Part shown: positions 6,031 to 63,270 of the stretch, piece after piece
Layout: every line of letters starts with the position of its first letter
Numbering within the stretch: position 1 is the first letter of the stretch
NCBI RefSeq assembly: GCF_964355755.1
Contig: NC_092671.1
Location: 3,669,001 to 3,733,000 of the forward strand
From: Antedon mediterranea
Lineage: Eukaryota; Echinodermata; Crinoidea; Comatulida; Antedonidae
DNA length: 64,000 nucleotides
Direction: 5' to 3'
Notes under the pieces: generated by a model
Told to the model about the DNA's origin: nothing
The model's input: only the letters and a program-made list of their open reading frames with translations
Databases searched by the model: none
Position numbers and translations under genes: made by a program

Positions 6031-6038
6031 CCTAAGAG

Positions 6039-6158
6039 AGAAAAAAATGGATCATCATTGTAATCGTAATCTTCATCATTATCATCAACATTATCATTAT
6101 CAACATTAACATCAAAATCAGCATCATCATTATCATCATCATCATCATCATCATCATT

Positions 6159-6226
<68 letters not shown>

Positions 6227-6460
6227 TATTATTATCATTATTATCATCATCATTATCAACATCAATATAAACATCAACATCATCGTCAACATTATCATCG
6301 ACATCATCCTCATCATCATTATCATCATTATCATCATCATCATCATTATTATTATCATAATTATCATCAACATCAATATAATATCATCATCATCATTATC
6401 ATCGTCATCATTATCATCGTCATCATCATCATCACCATCATCATCAGTATCATCATTTTT
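6039..6460. repeat. (ATC)n trinucleotide microsatellite, ~420 bp
   Basis: Nearly uninterrupted ATC/TCA repeats with occasional ATT or AAC interruptions. The minus-strand frame translating to poly-methionine is an artefact of the repeat. The tract directly adjoins a LINE 3' tail at 6461, so it may have been seeded by that tail. Confidence 0.95.
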
Positions 6461-6800
6461 ATTTATTTATTTTTTTATTTATTCATTTAGCATCCATTCA
6501 ACAATACATCTAAAATACATAACAAAGAAAAAATACAAACAATTCATGGAATATTAAAATTTAATTAAACCAAAGTGAATGGATTCAAGGACGACCTTTT
6601 GGCTAAAATCGTCAATTTATTTCCAATGGGGTCCATTGCAAGAGAAATCGGAGATGTGAAAGTGAACAAGGAATTATAAGAAGGACATATGGAAATGTGA
6701 AAGACATATAAAAAACACATGTTAAAAGGGTATTATAAAAAACTATTAAAAAAAAGGGAAGAGCAACAATATCATCATCAGTAACATTATGATTTTCTAT
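6461..6800 (-). mobile_element. LINE 3' end (3' UTR and A/T-rich tail), minus orientation
   Basis: Read on the minus strand, the segment contains GCAATGGACCCCATTGG, then AAATAAATTG, then a block with GGTCGTCCTTGAATCC, and finishes in AAATGAATAAATAAAA repeats. This layout is typical of CR1/L2-type LINE 3' UTRs. No coding part of the element remains. The assignment rests on this layout only. Confidence 0.5.
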
Positions 6801-16241: not shown

Positions 16242-17310
16242 ATGCATTCCATGGGCTGGCAACATCAGCCGGTGAATGGAACGTTTACACACGGTACAAC
16301 CGAATCACATACTCAGGGAAATTTTAACATAGGTGTAGGCCCAGCTGATTTTTATTGTCGAACAGCTAGTTATGCTGACCCAACATCGTACACAGGTGAC
16401 GTTTACGAAAACTTCTGGGAATCAATTCGACAACATTACCCTACAAATAGTGGATTGTATAGTATCAATGAACATGTTAGTACAAACGAAGCGAGTACTA
16501 GTACTTTGGGCAATCAACAACACTGTGCTGTAGATAGCAATTATAGTAGACCGTATAACGGATGTGGGAAATCACGACCTGTGATACGAGACCCACCGCC
16601 TGTGTCTCGTAATATACCTAGGCTGCCGTTTTCCTCTGCCTCTAAAGATTACAGTCCGGTTGTTTTACCTACGATAGCAAACACAGACGTACATCCACCG
16701 GTATCCGTTCGACCTATATCTCATGTGAACTTAGCACCAGCTCAGTATCAACCACCTATAACAATCCCCACATACCCCCAACCAAACGTGTTTACTATGC
16801 CGAGTGTGGTTCCAGCCCCCACGTTCGCAGGGCCTAGACAATTTGTACCCGTTGGTCTTCCAACAACCTCCCTATTCAAACCCCAACCACCCGTGGAAAA
16901 CATTCAGATTTACAGGCCTCAACATCAGAGGGTTGTACCTCGTTCGTATCATAGTACTAGCGTGAGAGATTTACTTAAAGCCAAAGCCAGGTTCTCTAAC
17001 AGTTACCGCTTCTCACCACTAAGGTGCACCAAACGAGTTAAATCAATCCGAGCAAGGGCTGCCCAGGCGGCAAACTCTGAACTAAGCAAGTCGAATTCAG
17101 AAAAAAGAAGGGTGGCTAACGCCAGGGAGAGAGAACGTGTTAGCAACTTAAATTCGGGGTTTGAAAATCTTCGGAAGCATCTGCCAGGCATCGAAAGATC
17201 CAAGAGTCGAAGGTGTAGCAAGGTGGATACCCTGCGTTTTGCGATTGATTATATACATCAATTGGAACAGACGTTATGGGAGGACGACATGAACCAAAAT
17301 CGATCCACAG
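16242..17310 (+). CDS. ASCL: ASCL exon 1 (start codon to bHLH)
   Basis: Open for 356 codons plus one base (phase 1). The donor CACAG|GTTAGT keeps the whole bHLH in this exon. The intron's first codons include TAG, which would end an unspliced product. Confidence 0.8.
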
Positions 17311-17764
17311 GTTAGTAAATACTCTGTTACCATGGCAACGTAAACACACGGGTTACAAAAAAAGTGTGGTCATTTTTGTCCGGCGTTAAATATTACGGTA
17401 CTATAAATCACTAGTCCCTCCAGTATTCTAATTCCGGACAAATAGACACATTGCATATGATTGTTTTGATTAGGTACTTTTGTCGCTTACAAAAGTCAAA
17501 TAAGGGTTGAGATAAAAACATCATTTCATAAACAAATTGTTTTATTTCAATTTTATTTTTATTTTATATCAATAAGATGACAACATGATATATGGAAAAA
17601 CAAATGAATTTTTCCAGGCCTACGTAAATTATTTACATTTTTAAAACTGTGCTGTTCATTCAGGTATTAACCGAGATGTAAATATATGGCACGTTGTTCC
17701 GGTAAACCCCGTAGAAGATCAAGTGGCTGGGTACAAAGCTTATCAGGTAATACAAGGTAAGTAG
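16242..17764 (+). CDS. ASCL: Achaete-scute-type bHLH transcription factor (two exons)
   Basis: Predicted nuclear, E-box-binding bHLH regulator of cell fate. Proposed CDS join(16242-17310, 17664-17764), 389 residues. The start ATG has A at -3 and an in-frame TGA twelve bases upstream. Residues 1-280 are Pro/Ser/Tyr-rich with no known domain. The bHLH occupies about residues 289-347: basic ANARERERV, helix 1 NLNSGFENLRKHLP, loop with a Ser/Arg cluster, helix 2 SKVDTLRFAIDYIHQLEQ. NARER-RV, GF--LR-H-P and SKVDTLR are achaete-scute hallmarks, and the diverged helix points to the ASCL3/4/5 side of the family. An unspliced reading stops three bases into the intron (357 residues), so both termini are possible. 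TMEM9 is the next gene, as at human ASCL loci. The subgroup is an inference. Confidence 0.85.
17664..17764 (+). CDS. ASCL: ASCL candidate exon 2 (C-terminal 33 codons)
   Basis: The acceptor TTCATTCAG|GT restores phase and opens a frame starting GINRDVNIWHVVPVNP. It runs to TAG at 17762-17764. That stop overlaps a consensus donor, CAAG|GTAAGT at 17757, so the exon could instead end at 17756 in phase 1 and splice onward. No further exon was identified. Confidence 0.5.
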
Positions 17765-18676
17765 ACGCTATGGACCAGGAGGGTGTGGCGAACCGTCTTG
17801 ATTAGTTGTGAGGGTTAGGAATTTGATTGATTGTGTTTGATATTATGAATGTTGTATTTATAATTTACAAAGCGATAATTGCAAGTGAATGTTATGTTAG
17901 GTCATCACACTTTTCTTATACTTATTATTGTATAATAAGAAACAAATTACCCCGAAGTCACACAATATCTCAAATTAATTTATAGACAGGAAGTAAACGA
18001 AACATGAACGGTTAGAACGAATTTAATGAAGAAACAATAATGCATTTATTTGTTGAATTATTTAGAATAATATATGATGGGTAATTGGCGGCCAGGCGGT
18101 AATGTAAAAGACGGTTGTTTTGCCTTAAAGCAGATACCATTGCTACGAAGCGCCGTTAACCACGGGCTTGATACAACGCACCTGCGCATTGCACCCCCAT
18201 GCGAATACTTACTATCATTCAAATAATCGTTCTAAAGATTATACTATAATGTTCGTTTGTGTTAAGCGCAGCTCTTTTCATTTTATGTAGTTCACAAACT
18301 CGTTAATTTTAGTAATATTTTGAATTAATACAATAATTTGTAACGAGGAGTGATAATACATTACTAATATTTGCGACTCGTCACTGTAATAATCGGTTAA
18401 ATATATACAATAATGCACACTTGTGTTTAGCGCAGCAAGTACATTTGCTCTAATGCTGAGAATAATTATTATGCAATACATTTCGTTTACAATTATTTGT
18501 ATATTTTATGTTTATTTTTAAATATTGTAATATACCCCATTATTGCATTATGAACAGCATAATACACAACTTTTGATAATAAATAACAAACAGTATCATT
18601 ACTAAAAATTATTATGTAGGCCTAACGTTTGTTCATGTTACCTAAATGGAACACCAGCCGCCATGTTTCAATCGCA

Positions 18677-18812
18677 CAGCTGTGCCGTCTGCCTACCGCA
18701 GATGGTCATATTAACGAATACATACCACAAGTAACCTCTATCTAAAGACGCGACCGAAAAAAACGGAACCCAAAATTAATAAAAGAGGAATAGGTCAGAA
18801 AGACGACAGATG
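18677..18812. promoter_or_regulatory. E-box cluster downstream of ASCL
   Basis: CAGCTG at 18677 (within CACAGCTGTGC) and CAGATG at 18699 and 18807 fall inside a CpG-containing patch about 1 kb downstream of the bHLH gene. CAGCTG is the preferred site of ASCL/E-protein dimers, so an autoregulatory enhancer is conceivable. This is inference from motifs alone. Confidence 0.25.
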
Positions 18813-20744
18813 TGCAAAATAGGTTCCGCAGGCTTGCCGCGAGTCATTTTATGTTTTTATAAAAACACAAATTGATCGAAATTGATGAAAAAATTACCCG
18901 TAAACAATCGCGGCGCTCTTTTTCCAGATGCGTTAAGTTGTAAGTCAATATGTTACGATTTGATTGGACAGTTCTGAATTAGTAAAATTAACGAATTTTT
19001 CATTTTTCGTCCTCGGATTATCTTTTAAGGTACGGGACGCCATTGGGTGTGGTCTTGCTTTGATGAAATATGACAGTTTGTTTCAAAATTTCAAAAAATA
19101 ATCGAGTCTTTATTGAGCATGAGTTTCATGGACTTACCCGGGTAAATAACGGTACTAAGCCTGAACGGCACACCCATAAACATTCGATTTAAAAAGATAA
19201 ACCGAAACAATGAAAACAAAATAATTATAACTATAACAACTTCAATATAGAGAGAAAATTACAATTACAATCTTCGATAAATAATTTATTAATATTGAGA
19301 TTTCTTAGCTTAATCAACATATGAAATACAATTTTAAAAAGAATAATTTTTCATTATTTAAAATATATTATTATATTTTAGGTATAGGCAACAAATGATA
19401 TGTATTTGAGGCTACGTTCGATGTTTTATTCTACATTCCGTTAAAGATTTATTGTCCCCCACAAAAAATAATTCTTAAAAATTGTATTTTACAAAAAAAC
19501 TGTAATTTAAAGCAAGAAATAGTCAAATTGGCTGCCATCCAATGGGTTTTTGTTTGAATTTAACCATTTATTCTGTCATTTTACAAGTGGAAACATTTTT
19601 TTTTTCTACGGAAGTGATTAACTTTAGGCCTATCAAAACTACAAAATAATATATTCAAAGTCTGATTTTATTAAACTTTATTCTTCATGTTTTTGGGGAC
19701 AATTCAAGTTAATAAATCATGTACGGTTCCGTAGCAGCAGTAATTAATTCGATATAATCTTTGAGATGGGAAAATGGTGGGGGTAACCGTAGGCCAACGA
19801 ATACTGGTTATTTATAAATAGCTAGTAATTATTAGACGTAATGAAAACAATCTAGGCCTATGATTTAAAATATAAATAAATAAGCATTTAAAAAGTATAA
19901 TATTTTTAGCTTATATAGCATCGTAAAATATTTAGAGTTCACGTTTTGTCACCGAAGTTGTTTCTGCAACTATTTTAGCCCACTTTGAAAACAGTAGGAC
20001 TATGTTGCTTCAGCATTTTGACGCGGTGTTTCGAATTGTATGCGTTAGAACCCCGGTGATTTGCTAGGCCACAAAGTTAGGCCGTTAAGCTTTCGACGGA
20101 AACTTAAGCGATGTCCACACCTGTCTCCCGGAGCAGCCTGCCCCGCGTGACAGGTTTAACACTCATCCGCCCTGCTGAGATTAGAGGCAGTGTAATTGCA
20201 ACTAATTTGCAAGAATTTGTCGACCATAGATAGCTGTTGCCATTTCATCTCCATTGAATTCATAAATAAAAGAAAAATAATATTTTTTAAGCCAAAAATC
20301 ACATTTAGCTTGTATATTTTGTATAACATTTGAGGGTAGAAACTGATAAATACCCAGGTGTAAATAAATTCAACGTCACATGACAAACTTACCAATATTC
20401 AAAACAAATTATTGACTATACTTTCGTGTAAAACACATAATACTCGCATAGGCTTAAAACGTAAACGCCAGATTTATTACATTATGAGTGTTGTTACTTC
20501 ATGATTGCATCAACGAAGTCTTCAAAATCTTCGAAAAATTCGAATTATTATCATTAGTTTTCGTTTAATAATATAATGAAATTAATATATTAATAATATA
20601 AAACGTGAAAGCCAATATATTTAAAACAATGTTTAATGTTCTAATATTAAATATAAATTCTTGCTAATGCATTGAGGGCGCTCTGTATGAAAGTAAGATT
20701 TTGTTACTACCCAGATAGCCACAGCGTTGTTGTATATGAAATGA

Positions 20745-20760
20745 GCATGCGTACGCATGC
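20745..20760. repeat. Perfect 16-bp palindrome GCATGCGTACGCATGC
   Basis: Self-complementary over 16 bases in an AT-rich context. It resembles back-to-back NRF1-like GCATGCG half sites. No associated gene start is visible. Confidence 0.5.
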
Positions 20761-21929
20761 GTATTTCAATTTTTCAAAGTAGTCTGCCTTTTATGAGCAC
20801 GTAGTGATGAGGACATCTTGGCAACTGACGCGGTGTTTCTGAGGCGTAAGTTCGAATATTTTGCGGTGTTAGCCTAATTCATACATCGTAAATCTCTGGG
20901 CGCCAGCGTTCCTTATTAACCTTTAAATCTCAATCATTAACATGAAATTAAAAGTAAATCAGTATTCGATATAGGCTAGTGAATTATCCGACAAGATAAT
21001 TGTGATACGTCTACACAATTAATAAATTACCTGTAAAAATACACAACTCGTGTTACCTCATGGAGTCTTATTCTGGATAAACAAGGAAATTTATACGAAA
21101 GAAATTTCGTTTATTGGCGCCGTGAAGCTGAAAAATAATTGAGGCGTAAGCTTCTATTTATAACGTATTACGTTTATAAACAAAGAAGAAAAAATTTTTC
21201 CTTTTTTGGTAGTTGCATCTATCCATGCCTTTATCATAATATTGCATGCATGCATTCTGCTTAGGACATTCAAAACATCGCGATGGTTTTGTTTTATAAA
21301 GATAAGTTTAAGTGGCTAGTTTGATAACTGTATTACTGTTAAAACTAATAGTCACTAATGTTACTATGTTGTATTGTTTTATTGGTAAATGTTTTTTTTT
21401 TAAGCGATGTGTAGCTTATCAATGCATCAAAAGTTGAAAGTTGAAGAAAAAGAATCATAAATGAAGATTGATATGAAAAGCAGAAAAGACAAGAAATATA
21501 AAATTATTATAAAAAAAAGTTATATTTAAAAAAAAGAGTAAAATGGTTTTTAATCTGAAAATTGTACGCTATAAGAAACAAAACAAAAGTTCGGTACAGT
21601 AATCTTGGTTTGTGTAGATTAGATTAGGTTAAATGAGTTTTCCATCACCGGCAACTTACTGTGGTTATTTTTTTCAATTAACGTTTGAAACGCGTATCAA
21701 TGTTGGACTAAAATTTCGAAAGAACATGAAACTGTGCTTTTGACTTTTACATTGTTGTGCCATTGATAAGCCTAACTTAATATGAAATGACAAATGCATG
21801 GAGGTCGATACAGAATTAATCCAACCAGTACTTATGAATACCAATTCAACAAGTTCCACATGCCAAAAACGAAAGTAAAGCTATTTCTACTCTTATCTCA
21901 GACCGCCAACGTTGAATAAAGAAAAGACA

Positions 21930-22275
21930 ATTGGAAGCTGACCTAGGGCAAGACTACCCTGTCCACAGCCTAGACACTAGGCCTCCCCCGACACAGGCAC
22001 GCGACAGCTCCCCGTCAGACCTTGCCCAAGACGTTGGCATCTCCCTTCGGATGGCGCCTCCGGGCCTAAAGTGCTACATCTACCATGCATCTTTACCGCA
22101 AATTCGTCGCGTGTTCCTTGCCTACAGTGGTCAGAATACAATGTAAATTCCTTGTGCCAAACATGTCCAATTGTGTACATGACGCACCTGTGGACTGTAC
22201 CTCTTAATTGGACTCGGGGTAACTTTGTTAAACTTAAATCAATTGGGCGGAGACAGCAAATTCTGGAAAACAAAC
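21930..22275. other. GC-rich patch of unknown origin
   Basis: About 340 bases with clearly higher GC than the flanks, holding overlapping open frames on both strands (71 codons + at 21931-22146, 98 codons - at 21977-22273). No start context, domain or splice structure supports either frame. A fragment of a GC-rich repeat or decayed coding sequence is possible. Confidence 0.3.
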
Positions 22276-23326
22276 AAAGTCGTCAACTTAAATTTCAAAT
22301 TGTCATAAAGAATTAATCAAAGTATAAATTTAATTTATTTCATACTTAAATTGATTTTTTTCTTTTAATAACATATTTATATACCCATTACATTGATATG
22401 CGTGTTACAATTTTCTTAGAAACAAAAAGAGTAGCAGTATTTATATAGCATTGCCAAGATTAGTTGGCATATATAATAATATATCATTCCAAAGGCCCCT
22501 ATTAGTATTTTATGCTGTCTTTATTTCCAAGTTTGTTTTTAACGAACAAACTTTAGAAAATAAAAGCCATTTTATTGGGCTACATATATTTCTCAATAAA
22601 GGTTTTTATATTTAAATTTTACCTTTTTGATGTCGTTTTGATGTCGTTTTAACGTAAAGTATTGCAATTTTATTGTAAGAAATTCAGCAATTCAGCCTTT
22701 GGCTGCAAATTTATTTCAAAGTTTAGTTTTAACGTTTAAGTAACGTTTATCATTCGAATAAAACTAATAATATGTAAACAGATTTTCTGTTTTAGCACAA
22801 AGGGTTTCAAATAAAATATTGCCAAGTACAGCACGATGCATTTTTATAAAAGCATATTTTCTGGACAAAATACAGTGTAGGAGGCCTACATAGTTGAATT
22901 TTATTCGAATAAGCGCCTAAAATAAGGTTAACAATTTCTTCTCAAAAGTGTTTTTGTAATTTACGTAAACATGTAATTATTAACACTAACACAATGAAAC
23001 TGTATTCAATCACAATGTGCTGAATTGATTTCTAGGCCTAATTCACTCGGGTTAGACACAAAAACAATTGGCAGACAACCAGGTGGTATGAGAGCGTTGA
23101 CGCCGGTCAAAACTCTCGGCCTAACACGTTCGTTTATTCTTTCGATTTCCTAATTCGTGCAAATACAGGAGCCTATAAATTTAATATGTCTCCCCCCATT
23201 ATAAAGATGCATTGCGAAATATATAGGTAGGCCTATTCATACATATTATTATGTTTATTTTTAGATTTAAGTAGATTAGTATTGCTGACAAAAAAAAAAA
23301 CAAGGTTAATTTGAGTCCAGTTTCTT

Positions 23327-23762
23327 TTTTTTTTTGTCTTGTGTGGGGTCTTCCCACTTTTATTATAATTCTCAGATTTATATGTATATATATTATATAT
23401 AAAATAAAGGTACATTGTAGCAATTAATTATTTGTATGAATATTTCTATTTCTGTTGTATATTACTAAGATTGTTACAAGTTAACAAGTAGTTAAAAAGT
23501 AGGCATATTTACATAAAAAGATGATTAATTTCAATATAATAACCATGCTTTCATTTACAATTTTAAAAAGATGTTAATTAAAATATAAAGATAAAAGATG
23601 GTAATAAAAGTCTATGAACTGTCATTAAAAACGTACTTATAAAATCTTGTTCATGTTCTGGTAGAGAGGCTATAAACTCAGAGGAGGAATATAAAATATC
23701 CTCCCTTTTCACCAAGACAAAAAGGATGAGATGAAAAAAGAGGAATGCAAAAGTTTGAAAAC
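23327..23762 (-). mobile_element. 5'-truncated poly(A) retrocopy with target duplication
   Basis: The 436-bp insert matches 57481-57911 in reverse complement almost base for base. It is bounded by direct repeats TTGAGTCCAGTTTCTT at 23311-23326 and 23763-23778. On the minus strand it ends with AATAAA, about 23 bases, then poly(A), which appears as poly(T) just after 23327. These are marks of target-primed reverse transcription of a polyadenylated RNA. This copy contains only the 3' untranslated part. Confidence 0.9.
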
Positions 23763-23778
23763 TTGAGTCCAGTTTCTT

Positions 23779-24735
23779 GTAAAATGTAACGGGTTAGTGG
23801 ACCTTTACGGTTCTACCATAGTTCTAATTTACTCGAAGCTTCCTTTATTTGTAAATTTACACTAAAATACTCATAAGTATTATGATGAAATCTATGCACT
23901 TCCCGCTCACCATGCAAGAGTAAAACACCTTAAGGGGACAACACGTTCATTCGTATCAAGGGAAAATGTCCCTTTTAGGTGTCCCTTGAATATGATGTCC
24001 TACTGCCTGTATTGTATTCATTCCGTTTATTCTTCTTTGTAGATTTACGGATGAACTGTGAAAGGTGATGCACGTAAAGTAAGACTTCTACGAAGAAGGC
24101 ACGGGCATTGAGCATCGTAATGTGGTACCGCGAGATATACTATATTTGTACGATGAAGTACACAAGATGATGTAGGCAAGAAACGTTGTTTGAACGATTT
24201 GCATGAATACAGAATATTTTATTTTGAAGAATGGTAGCCCAACTGGAGCCACCGTAATGTAATACATGGCAAATTGTACGAGAAGCGTCAATTAAAAATG
24301 TTATTATATTATATATTATATTTTGTTGTATTTGTTTATCATTTAAAAGAATGAAAAGAAAATCATTATAATAATTACAAATTTAGCAACGAGAACAATA
24401 ATGTTGTTTTTAATTAGAATATTTTACGTTGATATAGAAATAAAATACTTACAACTAAACAAAAGAATATATCACGATTATAATAAAATAAGATTATGTT
24501 ATGATATAGTAAAGTTATAAAAATGCTGTAACAGGCCTGCTCTTTACAATAAAAAGATCACATACCGTATAGCTAAGTGCTGCGTTAATAACTGTTGTTT
24601 TTGTTAATTTTATTTCTATTTATTGTATCATTTGCATATAATTAAAACATACATAAACAAATTACCGCAATTACGTCACTAAATATTTGGAACATTGGAT
24701 AGGCAAAATTGACCATGATATCGACTTATTGACTG
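23779..24735. other. Non-coding stretch, no gene seen
   Basis: AT-rich. Bases 23930-24000 carry a GTCCCTT-rich motif also seen near 28800-28960 and 56470-56640, a possible dispersed repeat. Confidence 0.45.
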
Positions 24736-26450
24736 TAGCTTAAGGTAACATGCGCATAACAGATTATGCGATTCTGCGCATTTGAAATTTTCGAAAAATT
24801 GGCAAATTTTGACCTTTTTATTTTTTGGTATAACTAGTTACTATGGCTCTATAAGAAGTTGATGACACAATATATGTGCATATATTGCAATATTATCGCA
24901 TAATTATTGAATTTTAAAAAGTAGATAGCATAATAAACATGCGCAGAGTCGAATAATGGGTTCTGCGCATGTCAATTACGCTATAGTAACCAGCCCTTTT
25001 ATTTTTTGACATAAATGGTTACTACAGCATAATAAACATGCGCAGAGTCGAATAATGGGTTCTGCGCATGTCAATTATGCTATAGTAACCAGCCCTGTTA
25101 TTTTTTGACATAAATGGTTACTACTACAGCATAATAAACATGCGCAGAGTCGAATAATGGGTTCTGCGCATGTCAATTATGCTATAGTAACCAGCCCTTT
25201 TATTTTTTGACATAAATGGTTACTACAGCATAATAAACATGCGCAGAGTCGAATAATGGGTTCTGCGCATGTCAATTATGCTATAGTAACCAGCCCTTTT
25301 ATCTTTTGACATAAAAAGGTAGAAATTTGGCCATTTTCTGAAAAATCCCTGTACTATAGTACAGGAAAACTTTCGAAAAATGACCAATTTCCGACCCTTT
25401 TATATTTTTGACATAATTGGTAACTATAGCATAATAAACATGCGCAGAGTCGAATAATGGGTTCTGCGCATGTCAATTATGCTATAGTAACCAGCCCTTT
25501 TATCTTTTGACATAAAAAGGTAGAAATTTGGCCATTTTCTGAAAAATCCCTGTACTATAGTACAGGAAAACTTTCGAAAAATGACCAATTTTCGACCCTT
25601 TTATATTTTTGACATAATTGGTAACTATAGCATAATAAACATGCGCAGAGTCGAATAATGGGTTCTGCGCATGTCAATTATGCTATAGTAACCAGCCTTT
25701 TTATTTTTTACATAAATGGTTACTATAGCATAATAAACACGCACAGAGCCCATTATTCGACTCTGCGCATGTTTATTATGCTATAGTAACCAGCCCTTTT
25801 ATTTTTTGACATAAAAATCCCTGTACTATAGTACTGGCAAATTTTCGAAAAATGGCAAAATTTTGACCTTTTTATTTTTTTTATATAACTAGTTTAACTA
25901 GTTACTATGGCTCTATACGATCTTGATAACACAATATATCCGCATATATAGCAATATTATTGCATTATAATTGAAATTTAAAAAGTGGATATTTCGGCTA
26001 CTTTATGAAATAAAATTTCGAGAAATTTTGACCTTTTTCATTATTTGTTTATAACTAGTTACTATGGCTAGGCTCTATAAGATGTTTTTGAATTTTAAAA
26101 AGTGGATATTTTGGCTATTTTTTTCGAAAAAATCCCTGTACTATAGTACTGGAAATTTTCGAAAAATTGGCAAATTTTGACCTTTTAATTTTTTGATATA
26201 ACTAGTTACTATGGCTCTATAAGATGTTGATAACACAATATATGTGCATATATGGCAATATTATCGCATAATTATTGAATTTAAAAAAGTGGATATTTTT
26301 GCCATTTTTCGAAAAAGAGAAATTACAGAGAAATTTTCGAAAAATGGCAAAATTTCGCCTTTTTTATTTTTTGACATAACTAGTTTCTATGGCTCTATAA
26401 GAGGATGATAACACAATATTATCGCATACTTATGTACTCATGTATGCACA
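24736..26450. repeat. Palindromic satellite array (100-bp and 201-bp periods)
   Basis: CATGCGCAGAGTCG recurs at 24938, 25038, 25139, 25238, 25439 and 25640: four steps near 100 bp and then two of 201 bp. The longer period inserts a block with the palindrome CCTGTACTATAGTACAGG. Each monomer holds an inverted repeat CATGCGCAGA...TCTGCGCATG and a second one, CTATAGTAACCA...TGGTTACTATAG. At 25738 one unit is present with its centre inverted. The flanks (24765-24930 and 25840-26450) hold diverged ~160-bp units marked by ACTAGTTACTATGGCTCTATA. Confidence 0.9.
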
Positions 26451-27526
26451 AATTGAGTATATGGTCCAAACTTCGCCTAATTTACAAATGCAATATAAAT
26501 TTGTTTTTTTGAAATAAAATAAATTTATTGCTAAAAGATACTGAAATAGATGTGAAAACAATAGTTTTCAATTTATTGCACTGTCTAGAAGGAATTATAC
26601 TGAACTAATGAACAGTCAACATCTGGACTAATGAACAGTCAACATTAATCAACAATCAAATATTCTTAATCTTTTTACACTTGTTAAACTTCAGAAACTA
26701 TATATGTTATATGATGCTTTAATTTGTTACATGAAATAAATATTTTATAATATTTTGAATTTTGTATTATGGTATATTACTTTGCAATTTATTTGTTTTC
26801 AAATCTGTTTGCAATGTTGAATAGAAATTGTATTGAAAAAATGCACATGAAATGGATTTTGTGCTATTCCGAAGTTACAGAGCACCAATATTTAGGTCAT
26901 AACATAAGTAATTAATTACAAGGTACTACTATTTCTAAATCTTTGCTCCTCTTTTGTTTAAACTTCAAAAAGTTTCAACCTAGAGTATGTCAACTATTTT
27001 ACATATACGTGGAAATACACGTATAAAACTTTCATTATCATTAAATGTTCTGACTCAAAAGTTACCAAATCTAGGTTTTTGCAGAACATAACAGATAGAT
27101 AGTGTAGGTATCTAAGAAGAAGATCTGTACAAAAGTGTTTGTATTATACAGGCCTATCTTAGAATTAATCATAATTTTATATAGATTATGCAAAAAAAAA
27201 AATACATTAATATATCAAATATATACAAGTTATCTCTATCTTATATCAAGGTTCAATTAATACTACAGATTGATATTTTTTTGTGAAGATAATAATTTTA
27301 AATCTCTTGAGTCTTATAATATTGTTATTAATGTTCATACCAAAATATACAAATTATGTCGGACAAAACTATGCAGTCATATTAAAAATACAAATTAAAG
27401 TTAAAAAAAAGTTAAATAGTAAATTTATAATCATATATTATAGTGGTCGGTGATGTTAACCATTCAAGCCCAAAAACATATTCAGAAATAACAGTTAATT
27501 TTCATAATTTAAACAACCAAAATTAA
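26451..27526. other. Non-coding stretch, no gene seen
   Basis: Strongly AT-rich sequence downstream of TMEM9. No open frame of note and no recognised repeat. Confidence 0.5.
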
Positions 27527-27652
27527 GGGTGCATGTCACCTTTGAGCCTTACAACCTGAAGGCACATGTCAGCTTGGTCACTTTATGCTTTATAAAACTG
27601 AGGGCGCCTGTCATGTTTGAGTCTTATAAACTGAGGCTGCATGTCAGCTTAG
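27527..27652 (+). repeat. Degenerate ~40-bp tandem repeat
   Basis: Three to four units share GCATGTCA or GCCTGTCA, TTTGAG, CTTATAAA and CTGAGG in order. Confidence 0.55.
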
Positions 27653-27856
27653 TGCAAAAAATGTGTTTTTAAACCATTTATTTTGGAAAGGCTGTATTCC
27701 TATCACAATCACACATAGTTTATTGCTTGCCATTACTATTTATTAATCTATATTATTCTTCGAATGCATACTATTTTTAAATATCCTTTAACAAAAATAA
27801 AATGTTTGTGCTTTTGTTCAATTTAAATTATTCAGTATCAAATTTGACTGACTGCC

Positions 27857-27862
27857 TTTATT
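27857..27862 (-). promoter_or_regulatory. Candidate TMEM9 poly(A) signal AATAAA
   Basis: First canonical AATAAA on the minus strand about 90 bases past the TMEM9 stop codon. Chance occurrence is easy in this AT-rich sequence. Confidence 0.4.
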
Positions 27863-27952
27863 CAAAATCAATGAAATACTGTAAATAGGTACAGTATTAC
27901 TAAAGTATCATTTGACAAAGTTGATAAATAAATTACATATTATTCAAAACAA

Positions 27953-28078
27953 TTAACTTAGCAGTGTATGTCGTTGATAGATATTTTGGCGCTGTTCCTT
28001 CACTTGTCTTTTCCATCTTTTCTGCGCTGATTCCATTCTTTGCATATAACCTGCTGTTGATTCGTTTGTTCTTGCACC
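27953..28078 (-). CDS. TMEM9: TMEM9 exon 5 (cytosolic tail and stop)
   Basis: Acceptor TTGATAG|GGT in phase 0. Encodes 41 residues ending in RHTLLS and then TAA. Confidence 0.93.
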   Translation of the reverse strand, partial: GARTNESTAGYMQRMESAQKRWKRQVKEQRQNIYQRHTLLS

Positions 28079-30896
28079 CTATCAACAAAGATAAATCAAT
28101 ATTATCAGTAAATAAGAAAAATATTTTCAAAATGATGTATGGGGAAAGAAATATTTCTTTTATCAAAGACTTAATTAATTATTAAGTCTTGTAAATGATT
28201 ATGAATTCAATTAAGTATTATGCATAGTTCCTCAAATATTAAACAAAACTATTGTTTAAGCTCTTTTCACTAACTCTGTACAGTATTTACTTTTTAATTT
28301 GTCTTATTTATCAAACTTTTACAAAGGAAATACAGTTAATTACTGAAGATAAACATGTATGAAGATACAAATACAATTATCTGTACAAAAAATTAAAGTA
28401 CAAAGAGTTGAGAAATATTAGCAGAAAATAATTTATGGAAATCAAATTAATTGAATGTATGTATGTGCATTTTCTGTATTGTCATGTACATAATAATAAT
28501 ACTGGTAGCTTATGGACGAGAGGGTTGGTTTTTAATCAATGAATACAATATTAATATTAATATTAATGAATAAATAGCATTACAAATGGTAATAACAAGA
28601 CTACTGTACTGTACCTGATAGAGGTGGAATTGAGGCTGGTCTGGAGCTGATTTTAAAATACTAGGATCATTTATTATCAGAAATATCATGTAAATCAACA
28701 GTAATCCCAACAATGCAATGATGAACATTGTCACAATCTAGAGAGAAAAACAAAATATACAACTTAGTACAGTGTAGTTGATGTTGAATCAGTAGAACCT
28801 CTAATATTGGGACACCTTTGGGATCCAATAAAATGCCCCCTTAATACTGGTGTCCCCTTAATAGGGGCTGGCCGTAGTGTTGAAGCATATATTGCCCCAT
28901 GTTTGTTTCACAGGAAAATGTCCCCTTTTATATGTGTCAAAACTAGGGGAGGTACAGATCATTAGTAAATAAGTAACCTAGAGTACATATATTAAAATCA
29001 TAAATATACATATATTATAGACTAGTCAATCTTTTCGCAGATAAATTAGAGTACCCAAGACTAGTACAACAACATACAGTTTGATGTTGAGTTAGGCTAG
29101 TAAAAAAACTATAATATTGTTAACTAGTCCGGTGGGCCAACAAATCTTAATTTCTGCCGATGTCATTGTTATTTTATTTTTATATACAGTATTTTAATAT
29201 ATTGTATATTTCCTTTATAGTTTTAGCTGTTTTATAGTTGTTTAGTTATTTTAGGTCTTCAACCCTGTACAAGCTTTTAGCTTTTTGTTGTTGATCCTTT
29301 TCATCTTTTATGCATTTTATCTTTGACATATATTTTTTTGATGAATAAAATGAATGAAAAATATGCATACCTCTATTGTCATGGTATTTCTGCTTTCATG
29401 TTTACACTCACAGTTTGCACATTCCGTTAAATCTCTATTCATAATATTTAAACAGGTACTGTGTGAAGAAAAATTTAAAGTTAAGTACAGTATCACAATT
29501 GTTGGCAAAATTACTGTCAAGTGTCTCACTACTGTATGAGGCACATGGACACACGACAAAAGATCACTAACTGTGATTTTTAAATCCCCAGAAGTCTTTT
29601 TCAATATCCATCTTACTCTTCCTTAAGAATATTAAAATGTATATTTTAAAATGGAGGGGCGTTCACAACAAAATGTGTTATTCCATGAGGCCGTATGAAA
29701 GACTACACCTACAATATCATTACGCTCTCAAATGGCCATGTATACTTGTTTTTTATGTGTTATTTATGTTTTCTGGAAAATAATTGAAAATGACTATCCA
29801 ATAATGGTTTTAATAAAATTTTTATTTTAAATCCCTTTTAAAGATATATAAATGTTATTATTTTGTTTTATGTTCTGAGAGTCTCTCTATGATCAGCTTC
29901 AAATGACAAATGCAGGAAAAAAATAATTTTGTACAGAGCATACAGTGTACTATAATAAATAACAATTTGAATTGATGTACACTAGTGAGATAAAGTGAAA
30001 TTTTAGGTTAAAAGGCTATTTTAAGGCATTACGTTGAAACTATATAATAACATCATATCATAATTTACCAAAATTCAGCTTCCACATCAACAACTTTGAC
30101 GTCAATTGATTCATTAGCATTTTTCTTGGGCGGACAGACACATTTGCATCTTACATCTTCAAACTGAGCCTGAAAAACACATTTTAATTTTGTTTTTATT
30201 TATATTCCATATTACATTGAAATCATTCAATAAAAATCGTGAATATGCACCTACTACAATACAAATAAACACGCTGCAGTACACTGGGTTGTATCCATGT
30301 TAATTAATGTTAGTTTATCACAGGGAAGAGTGAAATTTATTTAATATCAATAAAATACAGTTTATTTTTATACTAGCCCAGTAAGCTAGGTAGGCCCTCT
30401 AGCCTAGGCCCTAGTAGTAGTACTGTAAATAATTTTATTAATTAGGCCTTAGCCTTAGGCCTACTAGGCTATAGTAGTACAGTATTTTATTTATATAAAA
30501 TGTTTGTACGGTATAAAATAAATAATAATAATAATATAGATAGGGACTAGGCTAGGCCCTAGCTAGATAGAGGAGATTTTAATAAACAAACTTGAAATTC
30601 GCTCATACTAGCACGGAAAGAAGGTTTCAATAGACCACAATTTCCTAGGCCCAGTCGTGGCTACTCCAGGTCACGATGATCCTTCCCACCCGGCCCACCA
30701 ACTGCACAGCCCAACAACAACACAGCCCACCACCATCATCATAAAAAGATTTTTGTTCGGCCTAGCTTTATTATATTTTACCAAGCCTAGTATTTTCACA
30801 TTTTTTAAACTGAAAATAGCTCCTTACCATTGCAGTATTTGATAATACAATTATACAAAATAAAAGAGACAATTTAAACCCGGTATAATTGTCCAT
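27953..30896 (-). CDS. TMEM9: TMEM9 family protein, complete, five exons
   Basis: Type I membrane protein of late endosomes/lysosomes; vertebrate TMEM9 regulates the V-ATPase and Wnt signalling. CDS complement join(27953-28078, 28615-28737, 29371-29458, 30069-30169, 30828-30896), 168 residues against 183 in human TMEM9. All junctions are GT-AG and keep frame. Residues 1-23 form a signal peptide (FKLSLLFCIIVLSNTAM). The Cys-rich luminal part carries RCKCVCPP, FCTCL and ECANCECKHESRNT, plus an N-E-S glycosylation sequon. One transmembrane segment follows (about residues 87-109) and ends IINDPS, like the family's DP motif. The charged cytosolic tail has SAQKRWKRQVKEQR and ends LLS*, as the family does. 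Every family landmark is in order, so the assignment is firm. TMEM9 and TMEM9B are not distinguished in invertebrates. Confidence 0.96.
28615..28737 (-). CDS. TMEM9: TMEM9 exon 4 (transmembrane segment)
   Basis: Acceptor TCTCTCTAG|ATT and donor CAG|GTACAG, both phase 0, 41 codons. Contains the hydrophobic run MFIIALLGLLLIYMIFLII. Confidence 0.93.
29371..29458 (-). CDS. TMEM9: TMEM9 exon 3 (second Cys cluster)
   Basis: Acceptor TTCTTCACACAG|T and donor GAG|GTATGC. One base completes the Cys codon begun in exon 2; ends in phase 0. Confidence 0.93.
30069..30169 (-). CDS. TMEM9: TMEM9 exon 2 (first Cys cluster)
   Basis: Acceptor TTTTTCAG|GCT in phase 0 and donor TTTTG|GTAAAT in phase 2. Encodes the family signature RCKCVCPP. 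Confidence 0.93.
30828..30896 (-). CDS. TMEM9: TMEM9 exon 1 (start codon and signal peptide)
   Basis: AAAGATGG start context with purines at -3 and +4. 23 codons, donor GCAATG|GTAAGG in phase 0. The signal peptide fits the family and the frame joins exon 2 exactly. Confidence 0.88.
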
Positions 30897-46405: not shown

Positions 46406-47509
46406 TTCTTAATTTTTTTCTATATGCTGACGACACCACTGTTTATTACTCTGACCCTGATATTCAAACCTTATTTAATACTGTTAATACCAATCTGACC
46501 CTTATGTCTCAATACTTTTCAGCATAACAAACTTTCTCTTAACCACAAAAAATGTAACTTCATCCTGTTTGGGACCCCTCAGAAAATTAAAAACATTGAT
46601 ACTGCAAACTATAACATTTCTATTAACAATCATGATATTCCCTCAGTCCAATCTGCTACATTTTTAGGAGTTCATCTTGACAGTCGACTTTCATGGAAAA
46701 ATCACATCAATTTTGTTGAGAATAAAATTTCAAAAAGTCTTGGCATCATCACTAGACTTTCTTCTTTTTCACCCCCTAACATTCTTCGTATCCTGTACTG
46801 CTCCCTCATCCTGCCTTATCTTAACTATTGCAATATTGTCTGGTGCAACTCTTATCCTTCCCGTATTAAAAAACTTCAAACTCTTCAAAAAAAGGCCATC
46901 AGGGTTATATCTGGCGCCCCACCCCTGTCTCATTCATCTCAACTTTTTTCAAAGCTTAATCTTCTCAAAGTCTCCGATATCAATCTAACCCAACAAGGCT
47001 CGTTCATCTTTTCTTCTATTAATTCCAACCTTCCCAAACATCTCTGCTTCATGTTCACTCCAAATTCTTCAATTCATTATCATAATACCCGTATTTGTTC
47101 AAAAATACATATTCCAACCCATAAAACCAACCACTTTCAACACAACATTAGGTATTCCGGACCCACTTTTTGGAACGATCTGCCACTCCCCATCTTAAAC
47201 TCTGTTTCTAGTAAATCATTTTTATCTAAACTTAAAAGTCACCTTATTGCCAAATATTAACTTTTCCTCGGTTAATTTTTTTTTTTTTTTTATTAATTTT
47301 TTTTTTTTATTTTATATATTTTTTTTTATTTTATAAATTTTCATTGTCTGTGTCTGTAATAGGTACGTCCTCCACAAGATGTGTTTTTCATCTTTCTGGG
47401 CGTGTACCTTCTTCTTTCGAATTTTTGTTTACATATTTATTGATCACTGAAATCTATTTTGTATATGAAAGGAGAAAATAAATGTTGCTTTGAATTGAAT
47501 TGAATTGAA
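46406..47509 (+). mobile_element. 5'-truncated CR1/L2-like LINE
   Basis: Comparison with the uninterrupted repeat copy near 47820 places the insertion exactly after GTCCAA and before CTAGTTTGATAG. The element begins inside the reverse transcriptase, ends with a T-rich 3' UTR and finishes AATAAATGTTGCTT plus (GAATT)n. No target duplication is discernible, as is common for CR1/L2-type LINEs. Confidence 0.9.
46408..47260 (+). pseudogene. LINE reverse transcriptase C-terminal part, one frameshift
   Basis: Starts at the RT active-site motif (NFFLYADDTTVYYSD). It continues through NKLSLNHKKCNF, ATFLGVHLDSRLSWKNHI, LRILYCSLILPYLNYCN and LQKKAIRVISG to YSGPTFWNDLP and a stop at 47258-47260. These are standard RT thumb and C-terminal landmarks of the Jockey/CR1/L2 group. 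A single extra base near 46525 breaks the frame; otherwise about 245 codons are open. The N-terminal RT and endonuclease are missing, so the copy cannot be autonomous. One lesion suggests a fairly recent insertion. Confidence 0.92.
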
Positions 47510-58200: not shown

Positions 58201-61200
58201 TATAATGACAGTTGGGCGCACCATACTTTCTTTTAGATCTGAACCATATCAAATGACCTATTTAAATTGTATTTATTGTAAAAACACATCACATACAAAT
58301 ATTTCTAAGATTTTTATGCAACAATGCATTTTTTGAAAAATAATAATAATATTGTTTTCTAACGCCAAGTTTAACTTGTTCGTTTTCATAGAACTGGACA
58401 ATTAGAGATAACTATTAATTATCTAGAGGACTCTGGTTGCTTATTACTAACTATTGTACAAGCACGTGACTTAAGGATGACCAATCAGCACAGACCATTG
58501 GACACTTTTGTAAAAATTTTCATCGAACCTGATGAAGAGTCAAAAGCACACACAAAGGCGAGTATTATACATCTTCGTTCCCATTGGACACAAAATCATT
58601 AACGTAAACACATCGCAAGTAAGTTGACCAATCACGACGCGATGGACTATTCGAACTGTCGCTTGTGATTTGTCAACTCAGAAGTTAAAACCAAGCTGTA
58701 AATAGAAACCCATTGATTGTCCACTTAATGTGTGTCCTGAATAGTAGCTCAAAATAATTTATTTAGCTCAAGTAAAATGCTATCTTTCCACATGTGAAGT
58801 CCTAACCGTCAATAGTAATTATCCGAAAACCACACTCTTAAATAATATTAAGATCCATTCTATCTTATATGACGAGGTCGAATGTATATGGATTAATAGA
58901 CATACTCGAATAATCCTCGCAAAATACTCGTAATAGTTTACGCGTACTACTCAGATGACGTCGATAAGTTTACTAAAAAGCTAAACAAAAATTGTTGTTA
59001 TCATAACCATTCGATAACTTCACCTACGCATATCAGCGGAATGACAGATGTAACGTTACACAAGAGAGAAGTTATATCGGAACGTTTTCTACACATTTGT
59101 TCTAGTCGCATACGAAATTGCAAAGGTGACAGAAATCGATAACAAACTTATCTGACATTTAAACTGAATGTTAACCGAACTGTATTTAGAATCTTCTTAT
59201 AGAATTTTCTATTTAACAACACAACAGTTAAGCGTTATATCTAATAGAAGTTTGTTATAAAATACAGAAAAGTAATTAGGCTGATGCATGTATTATATTA
59301 TTATTATTATTATGTATTATCTTAGAGCTCTAAGACTCTTTATTTTATATAGAAAATAATTATTGTTCAGGCCTAGCGTTACTTAAGTTACGCTACTACT
59401 ACACTGCCCACTATTAAATACTCTACATTTTTATAATAAGCCTACAACTTTCACAATTTAATGGCGGCATTATTAATTTATTAATAACACTATGTGAATT
59501 TCAATGTTTCTTCACTTTCCCTTTACATTTTGCATTCAAATTATATACATAAACATACAGCAAAAAAAAAATCGTGGGGTCTGGGAGAAGCGCCCGTGAA
59601 ATTAAAAAACAAATTAAAATACATTTTTGCGTGAGTTACACTAATTATTACTACCACTAACTTAAGCTTTAGTTCTAAAACGAAGTTCAACAATCCCATA
59701 TACGTAGCTGCAGTCGCGTGCGTAAATTTGAGTTAGTGTTTACCGACCGACCGACCAACCGACATAGTGAGCTGTAGTTTGCACGCGACTAAAAACAAGG
59801 TTGGTTCGGCGCACCAAGATAATATCTTATACCAATTAAGAACATTAATTGTGGGTTGAAGCACTCTGCATAATAAGGTTTACTTTTGTTAATGGGAACC
59901 AACATGAGAAAGAACTAGGCCATGTAATTACATCAACAGGAACATCGACGATTGAATTAATACTGATTCTTGGAAATGTCTTTATATTTTGTACTAAGAA
60001 GATACAAAATACAGGGTCATTCCAGTCATTCTGCCATGTGCATAATATCGCGTGCAACAGACAAACTTTCGTTTAACGAACAAACGTTCTCCTTTACAAA
60101 AAAGATACAAATATGACACTTTACAATTATCGAATATTAAACACAAAAAGACTTCAAAGAACTGTTGTAGTTTACACCTGATGGGTTGTTTACTTGATTT
60201 TATTTTTTAAAACACCTGTTTCAATTCTTTCAATGTGAATAGGGGTTTCAGACATCTTCAGACTGAAATGTTTTTAAAAATGAACATATGCGGTGGATTT
60301 GTCTAGTCTATTGTGTTGTACTTCTTAGAAATGGACTTATGATTATTTTGAAAGAAAGAATAACGCATCTAGTCAATAAAAGAGTTTAGAAATAATAGAA
60401 GAACTTGTAATAACAAAGTTCAACTTCAAGTTCTAAACGTACTCAATCACACATCACGACGGAGATTGAATTATTTAATATGATATATTACTTATTAGGC
60501 CTAGATAAACGCCTCTTTTGATATTAAGACAAGCTATCAATAATAAGTACAATAAACAAAAGGGGTTGGCCATTTATAAAGCATAATTCCTTTCGTTCGT
60601 TACGGGAAATAATTTCCATTGAAACGTCCTCTGATTTCATTCATTCATTCACAATGGTATATTTATTAAAATCATCTTCACAGAAAAACTGAATTGTGAC
60701 AATTTTTTATATTATTAAAAGGTACTTAAAATATTTAAAATGTTTTAAAAAGATAGCATAAAATAACATCAAAAATTGAGATCCACACAATACATCATAT
60801 AAAAACATTAAAATAAACGAGCACAACATCAAAACCAGTAAAAATCTAAATGACTAAATTACCTAACATGTTATATTTAATTCTTATTACTTCAAACATA
60901 TATTATACAGAGGGATAAAATTATTTTCAATACAGAAGTAAAATCAGTTGCGGTTCCGCTGCCTAATCATGTATGGAATGGAGCTGTTACCATATCTGAC
61001 AGTCCGGCAAACAGGGACAGTAAGTTTGTTTGCGCTTCGTATGTCTCTGCCATGAGACTCAAACCTACTGGGTGGAATACACTCACCTGGGCTAGAAATT
61101 AACGAGGCAAAAAATTTGCTACAAATTTCATTACGACGAACATTTAACTGTATTAGTTACACTGATCAAGAGCTAGATTATAGTGTGAAAACAGAGTTCC

Positions 61201-63270
61201 TAGAATAATTTTACATGCTCACTTTTGGATTCTCTCTAACATATTTGATTCAAGTTGGGTAAGACCAGAATGCCACACAGGAGCAGCGTATTCAGTTAAG
61301 GATCTGACATACCAAGTGTAAATAGTTAATAAGTCAACAATTGGCATTTTGAATCGCTTAAGTACTTTCAACATATATAATCTACCATTAGCTTTGCTTT
61401 GCTAAGCACTTTAGTGATATGAGAGCTCCATTTAAGATCAGAACTAATGTTAACTTAACGCCTAAGATTGTAGTATTGTTCACAATGTGCAACGGCTGTC
61501 CATCAATGTTGACAACATGATTAACATTTTCTCTACAGAAATTTACACTCATAACTAAACATTTGCTATAGGATTAAGTTTCATATTATTGTCCAAATGG
61601 GGTGTCCACATTAGTTAGTGAGCACGGCCGGGTGGATGGGTGGGTTGTGTGTGTGTGGGGAAGGGGGATGGAATCTAGTTATTATATATCTCCTATTTAC
61701 TGAGATTTTAAGTTTAACTGTTGTGTATTATGTATAATATTTATCAAATGGCAACTTTAGACAGGGAGTTATTTTACTCCCTTAAGCTTGGTTCCCACTA
61801 GAACGTAACGCAAGGACGTAAACGCAACGCAAGCGTTTTAACCAATGACAAGCGAAGTTATTGACAGTTAGCAATCACAAGCGAATAAGCCATCGCTTGT
61901 GATTGGTCAATTCACTTGCGTTGCGTTACGTCCTTGTGTTGCGTCGCTAGTGGGAACCACGCTTTAAGCATTTTCCTAATTAATTGAATTCTGTGTATTT
62001 TAGCAACTTTTCTAATAATATTATTTCAACTTTATTTAGATTGCAAATCGTTGCCTCAGTCCCATTTATAACGAGAAATTTCTTTTCAACATTCCAAAAG
62101 CTGAACTGGACTATCGTGCTCTTCGTTTAGTTGTCTTAAGCTGTGATCGATTTTCGCGAATAGGAATGCTAGGCGTTTGCAGACTTCGATTAAGCGACCT
62201 CAATCTCGTACCAAACCCATTCACCGCTTGGTTAGACCTAGCTGAAATGTCGGATGATGAGGTAAGCACTCTATAGGCCTACTTAATTAAGTCATGTTAC
62301 GATAATTGGCCTTATATTTGGCATTGCCATAAACGCGAAAGCGCAACACTAAGCTGGAATGGCCTACTTAATGTACATTAGTAGCCCACAGTACAATAAC
62401 CTCCACTAAAAGTACACATAACTATTCCGATACAATCATGTATAATGTAAATATCTTACTACGGCAATGCATTTCATTTTTTATTATTAATATAAACATT
62501 TCGCTACTGAGAAATATTGTAAACAGCGCCACCAATTAATTAAGTAATTCTTAACTATATAACAATGAGACATTTATCTGAAACTTGGAGGGATAATAAT
62601 AATAATAATAATAATTTATATAGCGCCCTTTTCATGAGTGATCATGCTCAAAGGTGGGACAAAATCAATGTCTTAACCATGGCAATACAAAATTAATAAA
62701 TTAAATAAATGTTTTTTTGACATTATTTGTCTCACTCCCTTTATTGGAAAGCAAATTGTTTTTTTTTTTCTTTCTAATCGAAAACTAGTTAGCTGATGAT
62801 TTTGGCAAATTACTGTTTTATTGCTTGCGAATAAACGATTTTTTTCACAGAAAAACACAAGAAGGCCGAGCTAAACTATTATTTTTTTCCCTACAAAATA
62901 ATATGCTTTATTAATAAAATTAGTTATTTTAATGCTATGTCTACACTCTCAAACTTTATATGACAAAAAAATGTGTCCAAATATTTTTTATAAATATAAC
63001 GTTTAGAATAAAGATAGAGCTGATATAAAGAACACAATCGTTACGGCTCGTAGGATATTTTTGGTATGCACTTCCAGGGTATAACATTTAATGTATTAAT
63101 TTAATTAGGCTAAGTATTATGATAACATTTAATTTAATTTATATCTTAGACTACCATGGACTTAGGAGATGTATTGATATCGCTGAGTTACCTACCGACG
63201 GCAGCCAGACTAATGGTAATAATAGTTAAGGCGAGAAACCTAAAATGGACAGACCAAAAAGAAACCGCAG
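55020..63270 (+). CDS. SYT12: Synaptotagmin-12-like protein, 5' part (five exons, continues right)
   Basis: Membrane-anchored tandem-C2 vesicle-trafficking protein. CDS join(55020-55211, 56892-57097, 58392-58557, 62040-62261, 63150-63270...), 302 residues in window. Residues 1-24 form a transmembrane segment (MGVLVVAVVLCAITASGF) followed by HFC, a possible palmitoylation site. The Ser-rich linker has GRCGSAESLESVASDSS, like SYT12's QSADSLNSISS. C2A spans about 134-258, C2B from about 267 (GDVLISLSYLPTAARL, KARNLKWTDQKETA). The last block closely matches vertebrate SYT12. In C2A the calcium-ligand positions are mostly lost: loop 1 keeps only LDTF, loop 3 reads SCDRFSRIG. C2A is therefore probably calcium-independent, as known for SYT12. 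An upstream exon is expected. The remainder of C2B lies beyond the window. Confidence 0.87.
55975..56045 (-). repeat. Inverted single copy of the ~350-bp repeat family
   Basis: GTCTACACTATCAAACTAGT and GATGTGCCCAAATAATGGTA are reverse complements of landmarks in the 46105-48465 array. Lies in the first SYT12-like intron seen. Confidence 0.7.
56205..56260. repeat. 16-bp inverted repeat with 24-bp loop
   Basis: GATGCATTGTGGGCGT and ACACCCACAATGCATC pair with one mismatch. Possible hairpin or paired protein-binding sites. Confidence 0.6.
56643..56760. mobile_element. TGGTTCCCACTAG-family MITE, partial
   Basis: TTGGTTCCCACTAAGACGC, then GCAAGGACGTAAGCG and CTGTCGCTTGCGATTGGTC. The right terminal repeat is missing. 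Confidence 0.7.
56892..57097 (+). CDS. SYT12: SYT12-like linker exon
   Basis: Acceptor AACTTAG|GTT, donor GAGTTC|GTAAGT (phase 2). The only open frame is Ser/Thr/Glu-rich, with repeated Ser-Asp/Glu phospho-type sites. Confidence 0.85.
57123..57920 (+). mobile_element. ~800-bp retrocopy with poly(A) and target duplication
   Basis: Flanked by AATAATTTGTATGG at 57109-57122 and 57920-57933. It begins within a coding sequence whose frame ends FIKAQRKWGAKNETLLQLIA and TGA near 57246. A 3' UTR follows, with AATAAA and about 23 bases before the poly(A) (57910-57920). Its last 430 bp are the parent type of the insertion at 23327-23762. It sits just inside a SYT12-like intron, in the sense orientation. 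The source is either a LINE with a poly(A) tail or a host mRNA; the short C-terminus is not recognised. Confidence 0.85.
58392..58557 (+). CDS. SYT12: SYT12-like exon, first half of C2A
   Basis: Acceptor TTTCATAG|A completes a Ser codon. Encodes GQLEITINYLED, LLLTIVQARDL, DTFVKIFIEPDEESKAHTK. The only phase-compatible donor is CAAAG|GCGAGT, a GC donor. Confidence 0.88.
58578..58700. mobile_element. Decayed TGGTTCCCACTAG-family MITE
   Basis: CTTCGTTCCCATTGGACAC, GTTGACCAATCACGACGCG and CTGTCGCTTGTGATTTGTCA recall the MITE interior. Lies just after the GC donor. Confidence 0.55.
60944..61600 (-). pseudogene. Decayed LINE reverse transcriptase C-terminus
   Basis: On the minus strand, fragments in two or three frames read NVNHVVNIDGQPLHIVNNTT, RLYMLKVLKRFKMPIVDLLT, LTEYAAPVWHSGLTQLESNM, ACKIILGTLF and, at the end, VCRTVRYGNSSIPYMIRQRN followed by TGA. 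This order is the usual RT thumb and C-terminal region of CR1/Jockey-type LINEs. Several stops and frameshifts show an old copy. Antisense within a SYT12-like intron. Confidence 0.85.
61785..61963. mobile_element. MITE, 179 bp, near-identical to 48524-48702
   Basis: Same ends and TTA flanks (61782-61784 and 61964-61966). By eye it differs from the 48-kb copy at only about two positions (an A/T and a C/T change). Inserted 76 bases upstream of the second C2A exon. Confidence 0.93.
62040..62261 (+). CDS. SYT12: SYT12-like exon, second half of C2A
   Basis: Acceptor CTTTATTTAG|ATT and donor GAG|GTAAGC, 74 codons in phase 0. Encodes CLSPIYNEKFLFNIP, ALRLVVLSCDRFSRIGMLG and PFTAWLDL, all standard C2 positions. 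Confidence 0.93.
62593..62665 (-). mobile_element. SINE-like 3' end
   Basis: Minus strand GAAAAGGGCGCTATATAAAT followed by (TATTAT)n is a frequent SINE terminal motif in marine invertebrates and fish. No tRNA-like head is nearby. Confidence 0.5.
63150..63270 (+). CDS. SYT12: SYT12-like exon, start of C2B
   Basis: Acceptor TATATCTTAG|ACT, donor CCGCAG|GTGAGT in phase 1. GDVLISLSYLPTAARL and KARNLKWTDQKETA define C2B. The missing next exon should begin with a DPF-like block. Confidence 0.93.

Follow-up and report, generated by a model that had tools for sequence, protein, structure and literature searches.

A crinoid gene beside TMEM9 is not of ASCL3/4/5 type and is probably a FIGLA-like member of an achaete-scute neighbourhood

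Is a basic helix-loop-helix (bHLH) gene that lies beside TMEM9 in an echinoderm the undivided ancestor of two human gene pairs, ASCL3 with TMEM9B (which we take to adjoin on 11p15.4) and ASCL5 with TMEM9 (presumably adjoining on 1q32.1)? The question arises at a 64,000-nucleotide stretch of the crinoid Antedon mediterranea (hereafter the window; C2:3669001-3733000, where C2 is the contig; GC content 0.327), in which a first-pass annotation had recognized an achaete-scute bHLH, by implication of ASCL3/4/5 type, next to TMEM9 and proposed that one ancestral pair was duplicated in vertebrates. Searching the whole genome (354 Mb in 18 contigs), we find that the two genes are indeed neighbours, but that the bHLH is not an ASCL3/4/5 gene, a conclusion we regard as strong. 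Its assignment to a joint FIGLA/achaete-scute class is fair to good, and its identity as FIGLA proper, judged from sequence, is probable only. On balance, and with modest confidence, we read it as belonging to a tandem pair of group-A bHLH factors, both probably FIGLA-like, within an old cluster of achaete-scute (ASC) and FIGLA-class genes that has TMEM9 inside it. In this genome the genes close to TMEM9 are the probably FIGLA-like pair and two ASC genes, of which one is ASCL1/2-type, rather than an ASCL3/4/5 gene. The gene name under the original finding is thereby corrected, and the question becomes one about a cluster instead of a pair of genes.

The neighbours themselves are as first described. 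The bHLH protein, whose frame opens at 16242 on the plus strand, matches the Pfam HLH profile with 62.1 bits, and on the minus strand an intact TMEM9 gene runs from its start at 30896 to its end at 27953; the gap, then put at roughly 10 kb, is 10,685 bases from the HLH domain to the TMEM9 coding span. Re-joined by coordinate, the five TMEM9 exons give 168 residues with no break in frame. This protein scores 87.7 bits with Pfam Tmemb_9 (PF05434; cut-off 28.6) and matches, over residues 10-168, the TMEM9 chain of PDB 9dnx, presumably human (E 2.4e-25), including a conserved C-terminal motif; in the alignment the linker ahead of the C-terminal segment is shorter in the crinoid protein. PDB calls TMEM9 a V-ATPase assembly regulator. 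A whole-genome Tmemb_9 search returned nine rows, three on this gene and six others all under the family cut-off, so one copy was detected here, against TMEM9 and TMEM9B. That TMEM9 is single copy is likely but not proven, because two of its own three exon rows likewise score under the cut-off.

The identity of the bHLH gene was examined by phylogeny. An HLH profile search of the genome gave 46 matches on eleven contigs, ten of them at least 21 Mb long judging by match positions. Of these matches 25 entered the tree (six more were seen but omitted, and 15 were never fetched), together with 22 reference bHLH domains entered by hand rather than from a database record and three taken from PDB output, so that the main tree had 50 rows over 61 columns. 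Its ten ASC rows, namely human ASCL1-5, Drosophila sc and l'sc, and three genes of the crinoid itself, form a clade (98/95) that excludes the window gene. Instead, the window gene groups with a paralog 24 kb upstream (C2:3662292) and human FIGLA (88/80), and this group adjoins ASC (88/73). When FIGLA was removed, the pair still stood beside the ASC rows in a joint group at 92/82; when three long or odd rows were dropped, the group uniting the pair with FIGLA and ASC had 76/88. Human ASCL3, ASCL4 and ASCL5 join another crinoid gene, C2:14424072, at 93/90, 10.7 Mb from TMEM9 on the same chromosome. A bHLH tree with ASCL1-5 had been proposed beforehand, a position outside ASCL3/4/5 being the outcome that would speak against the first-pass reading, and the window gene fell outside that group in all three trees.

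Genome-wide queries were run as well. The human ASCL5 sequence, also entered by hand, had 23 matches, led by C2:14424k (90.1 bits, 70% identity). After it came the crinoid's remaining ASC genes (60.6 and 56.3 bits), one gene of PTF1 type (48.4) and the paralog (43.0), with the window gene sixth at 40.0 bits. On tree position and this rank we reject an ASCL3/4/5 identity. A human FIGLA sequence (122 residues), likewise entered by hand, had 31 matches, headed by the paralog (50.4 bits), with the window gene (43.8 bits, 52%) next. By identity across the domain, FIGLA is the row nearest to the window gene after the paralog (50%, with l'sc at 49%).

The comparison extends to individual residues. 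The window gene resembles FIGLA (BHLHC8, the vertebrate oocyte factor) in its A-N-A-R/K-E-R-E-R basic region, N-L-N-x-G-F in helix 1, and S-K-V-D, and differs in its identity of about 50%, compared within the domain and apart from the long N-terminus, and in its two tandem copies. With achaete-scute genes (ASCL1-5, Drosophila AS-C) it shares the helix-1 glycine, the V after the ERER motif, S-K-V, and a cluster neighbourhood. The helix-1 glycine is common to the pair, FIGLA and nine of ten ASC rows, and absent from all 37 remaining rows. Those 37 also lack the ERER motif's second E, which occurs in the pair, FIGLA and one of ten ASC rows. At a basic-region position occupied by A in the pair and FIGLA, all ten ASC rows carry R. 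Judged by an ASC signature defined from those ten rows (R before N-E/A-R-E-R, plus the helix-1 glycine), the window gene has the glycine and lacks the R.

Gene structure may add a further difference from achaete-scute genes. Directly after 17310 the window gene has a candidate phase-1 donor, GTTAGT, and the frame stays open across a phase-1 junction 17310/17664; reading splice sites by eye, we found no exons beyond the probable second one. The paralog likewise has a candidate phase-1 donor soon past the bHLH, and a motif search for its second exon gave nothing convincing. ASC genes are not known to have an intron at this position.

Several observations weigh against reading the pair as FIGLA-like. 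Support for the pair with FIGLA fell to 61/0 when the three long or odd rows were dropped. The alignment has only 61 columns, and in the tree the branch of FIGLA is long (1.03), its letters having been entered by hand and from a single species. In approximately unbiased (AU) tests, no alternative was rejected: forcing the pair with ASCL3/4/5 cost 13.9 log-likelihood units (p = 0.123), and placements with PTF1A or with ASC but without FIGLA had p = 0.215 and p = 0.286. The window gene's lead over the third match to FIGLA (41.4 bits) is 2.4 bits. By BLOSUM score, FIGLA (138) ranks only fifth for the window gene, after the paralog (208), the crinoid PTF1-type gene (147), l'sc (145) and PTF1A (145), and by identity the paralog is closer to l'sc (51%) than to FIGLA (48%). 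The basic-region alanine is not FIGLA-specific, because 27 of the 37 other rows carry it too. Published tables class FIGLA as BHLHC and ASCL as BHLHA (PMC8657788), and the Ciona gene Figla-r is listed in group B (PMC7693978). A PTF1-type identity was suggested by a common S-K-V-D-T-L-R and by the BLOSUM scores; the tree does not join the pair to PTF1-type genes, but the AU test leaves this identity unrejected.

A somewhat unlikely but credible alternative is that the pair are fast-evolving, lineage-specific tandem achaete-scute duplicates that became FIGLA-like by convergence, and that the locus is an ordinary achaete-scute complex. The mere 62-95 kb between the pair and two true ASC genes, the pair's ASC-type helix-1 glycine, its position next to ASC once FIGLA is removed, the unrejected AU placement and the rank of l'sc above FIGLA by BLOSUM score would all be expected of such duplicates. 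They would nonetheless have to stand outside a 98/95 clade holding every ASC row, to have alanine (a residue common outside ASC) in place of the arginine of all ten ASC rows, and to have a candidate intron past the bHLH, which ASC genes are not known to have.

Whether adjacency to TMEM9 has ancestral meaning is a separate question. Along C2 the order is paralog (3662k, plus), window gene (3686k, plus), TMEM9 (3697-3700k, minus), a C2-domain gene (plus), an ASC gene (3748k, minus) and the ASCL1/2-type gene (3757k, plus), so that the two true ASC genes lie beyond TMEM9 as seen from the pair, at distances of 48.5 and 57.8 kb from it, and the bHLH cluster spans about 96 kb. We would picture a probably FIGLA-like pair on one side of TMEM9 and two true achaete-scute genes, one clearly ASCL1/2, on the other, all within that span, with TMEM9 most simply a bystander membrane-protein gene. 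Under uniform placement, the chance that TMEM9 lies no more than 48 kb from any of the three real ASC genes is about 0.0006, and that of any of 20 other group-A genes (an assumed number) lying as near the ASC pair as the window gene does is about 0.008.

It is unlikely, in our estimate, that the bHLH-TMEM9 adjacency is a chance or recent arrangement of no ancestral meaning, a possibility compatible with either identity of the bHLH. Such a reading would suit an arrangement seen in one genome, with the ASCL3/4/5 gene 10.7 Mb away and both troponin rows and the single RIC3 row on contig C7, against a simple chromosome match (their human relatives are presumably on 11p15). The locus is like the human pairs in having a helix-1-glycine bHLH some 10.7 kb away from its one detected TMEM9 gene, and unlike them in that its bHLH is not of the ASCL3/4/5 type; the two genes are also convergent here (bHLH plus, TMEM9 minus), whereas the human pairs are presumably co-oriented, a difference that likewise suits a chance arrangement. 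Chance sits poorly with the small probability given above, and with two human paralog pairs that are presumably adjacent too.

At chromosome scale, where the tests gave mixed outcomes, the wider idea partly survives, because TMEM9 lies 48-58 kb from ASC genes and because the ASCL3/4/5 relative, a MyoD-type pair and a hydroxylase cluster are on the same chromosome: an ancestral ASC-TMEM9 neighbourhood holds in part for the cluster, while the proposed ancestral pairing of TMEM9 with an ASCL3/5-type gene does not. The MyoD-type genes (8437357 and 8503555, about 66 kb apart) group with MYOD1 at 99/98, and all 19 Biopterin_H hydroxylase rows fall at C2:40276292-40323637, 47 kb holding apparently three neighbouring genes, one inverted. 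Two of five E2F-type rows are also on C2, 8 kb apart, as unconfirmed candidates for E2F7/8. We take the human relatives of the ASCL3/4/5-type, MyoD-type and hydroxylase genes to be on 11p, 12q and 1q (MYOG on 1q), ASCL1 and ASCL4 to be on 12q23, and ASCL2 to be on 11p15.5. TMEM9 and ASC genes were thus probably neighbours before the vertebrate duplications. Within about 6 kb on each side of the ASCL3/4/5 gene, inspection by eye of frames of at least 70 or 55 residues showed no recognisable gene except a divergent bHLH of uncertain family (C2:14417591-14417752, about 6 kb away), which has alanine, not glycine, in helix 1.

That the window gene is itself an ASCL3/4/5 ortholog beside TMEM9, in a pre-duplication pair, is highly improbable: its 47% identity to ASCL3 and ASCL4 across the domain and the lack of formal AU rejection are set against the far better match and firm clade of C2:14424k and the likelihood cost of the forced group.

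If the pair is FIGLA-like, its position suggests that FIGLA and achaete-scute may be tandem siblings. The proposal is drawn from the pair's proximity to ASC, the helix-1 glycine and a Ciona robusta table. By a hand count of Table 1 of PMC7693978, KY chromosome 2 holds four of the 46 bHLH rows, namely Ascl.a (2314), Ascl.b (2022), Ascl.c (1484) and Figla-r (2108), so that Figla-r is the only one of 43 non-Ascl rows on that chromosome (about 0.023 for a named gene). Nematostella has tandem bHLH clusters, and the word 'figla' is absent from the main text of that report (PMC1828162); 'figla' and 'echinoderm' both appear in the text of PMC8446563. Judged from titles and the beginnings of abstracts, no literature on ASCL-TMEM9 synteny or echinoderm FIGLA was found. 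We offer only tentatively the proposal, based on a single genome, a single printed table and one short domain, of an ancestral deuterostome or older cluster of FIGLA-type, TMEM9, ASCL1/2-type and ASCL3/4/5-type genes, of which vertebrates kept differing fragments (TMEM9 with ASCL3 or ASCL5, FIGLA having left). The crinoid, with its ASCL3/4/5 gene at 14.4 Mb, and the vertebrates would then have retained pieces in different combinations. The proposal amounts to an explicit map of ASCL, TMEM9 and the genes around them as they may have stood before the duplications. If true, the egg factor FIGLA would be related to the proneural genes both in ancestry and in genomic position; an old cluster would supply positional evidence on the origin of FIGLA, independent of a 60-residue domain, and link an oocyte regulator to proneural genes.

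FIGLA-family proteins dimerize with E-proteins and activate genes through E-boxes. By analogy with vertebrate FIGLA and E2A, the probably FIGLA-like window protein is predicted to be an E-box-binding activator paired with an E-protein, for example the product of the gene at C2:36722k, which groups with TCF3 at 100/99. Reported FIGLA partners are E2A, TCF4 and TCF12 (PMC8657788).

Features of the window, with positions counted from its first nucleotide
Feature	Position	Strand	Evidence
bHLH gene exon 1 with start codon (FIGLA/ASC class, probably FIGLA-like)	16242..17310	+	open frame, Pfam HLH, candidate donor
HLH domain of the bHLH gene	17103..17267 (C2:3686103-3686267)	+	PF00010 66 bits, genome search
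Probable exon 2 of the bHLH gene	17664..17756, perhaps ending 17746	+	splice-site reading and translation
TMEM9 exon 5 with stop	27953..28078	-	genome search row, exon joining, PDB and Pfam matches
TMEM9 exon 4 (hydrophobic, transmembrane by eye)	28615..28737	-	genome search row, exon joining, PDB and Pfam matches
TMEM9 exon 3	29371..29458	-	genome search row, exon joining, PDB and Pfam matches
TMEM9 exon 2	30069..30169	-	exon joining, PDB and Pfam matches
TMEM9 exon 1 (start codon)	30828..30896	-	exon joining, PDB and Pfam matches
Open frame, partial C2 domain, synaptotagmin-like	58375..58599	+	PF00168 20.4 bits, just below cut-off 22; frame limits, not exons
Second open frame, partial C2 domain, probably same synaptotagmin-like gene	62040..62273	+	PF00168 34.0 bits

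The synaptotagmin-like gene between TMEM9 and the ASC pair has frames at 3727k, 3731k and 3734k, the third matching Pfam C2 with 33.7 bits. Between the bHLH gene and TMEM9 lies an 891-base tandem array (24925-25815; 8.9 copies of a 99-base unit, which by eye seems to hold an inverted repeat). Elsewhere in the window, 5976-6557 is a long simple repeat, open in several frames (D/N-rich or I-rich) and hardly a gene, and an open frame at 46499-47260 looks by eye like the C-terminal portion of a reverse transcriptase from a retrotransposon, with no Pfam match at E 0.1. A search of the genome for COX1 came back empty. Farther out are a kinase frame (Pkinase 48.7 bits; CDK-like by eye) and, by eye, a VWC/VWD-type gene and TPR-rich frames. 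At C2:3815307-3840460 the minus strand carries several large open frames, rich in TPR, that resemble interferon-induced IFIT proteins, again by eye.

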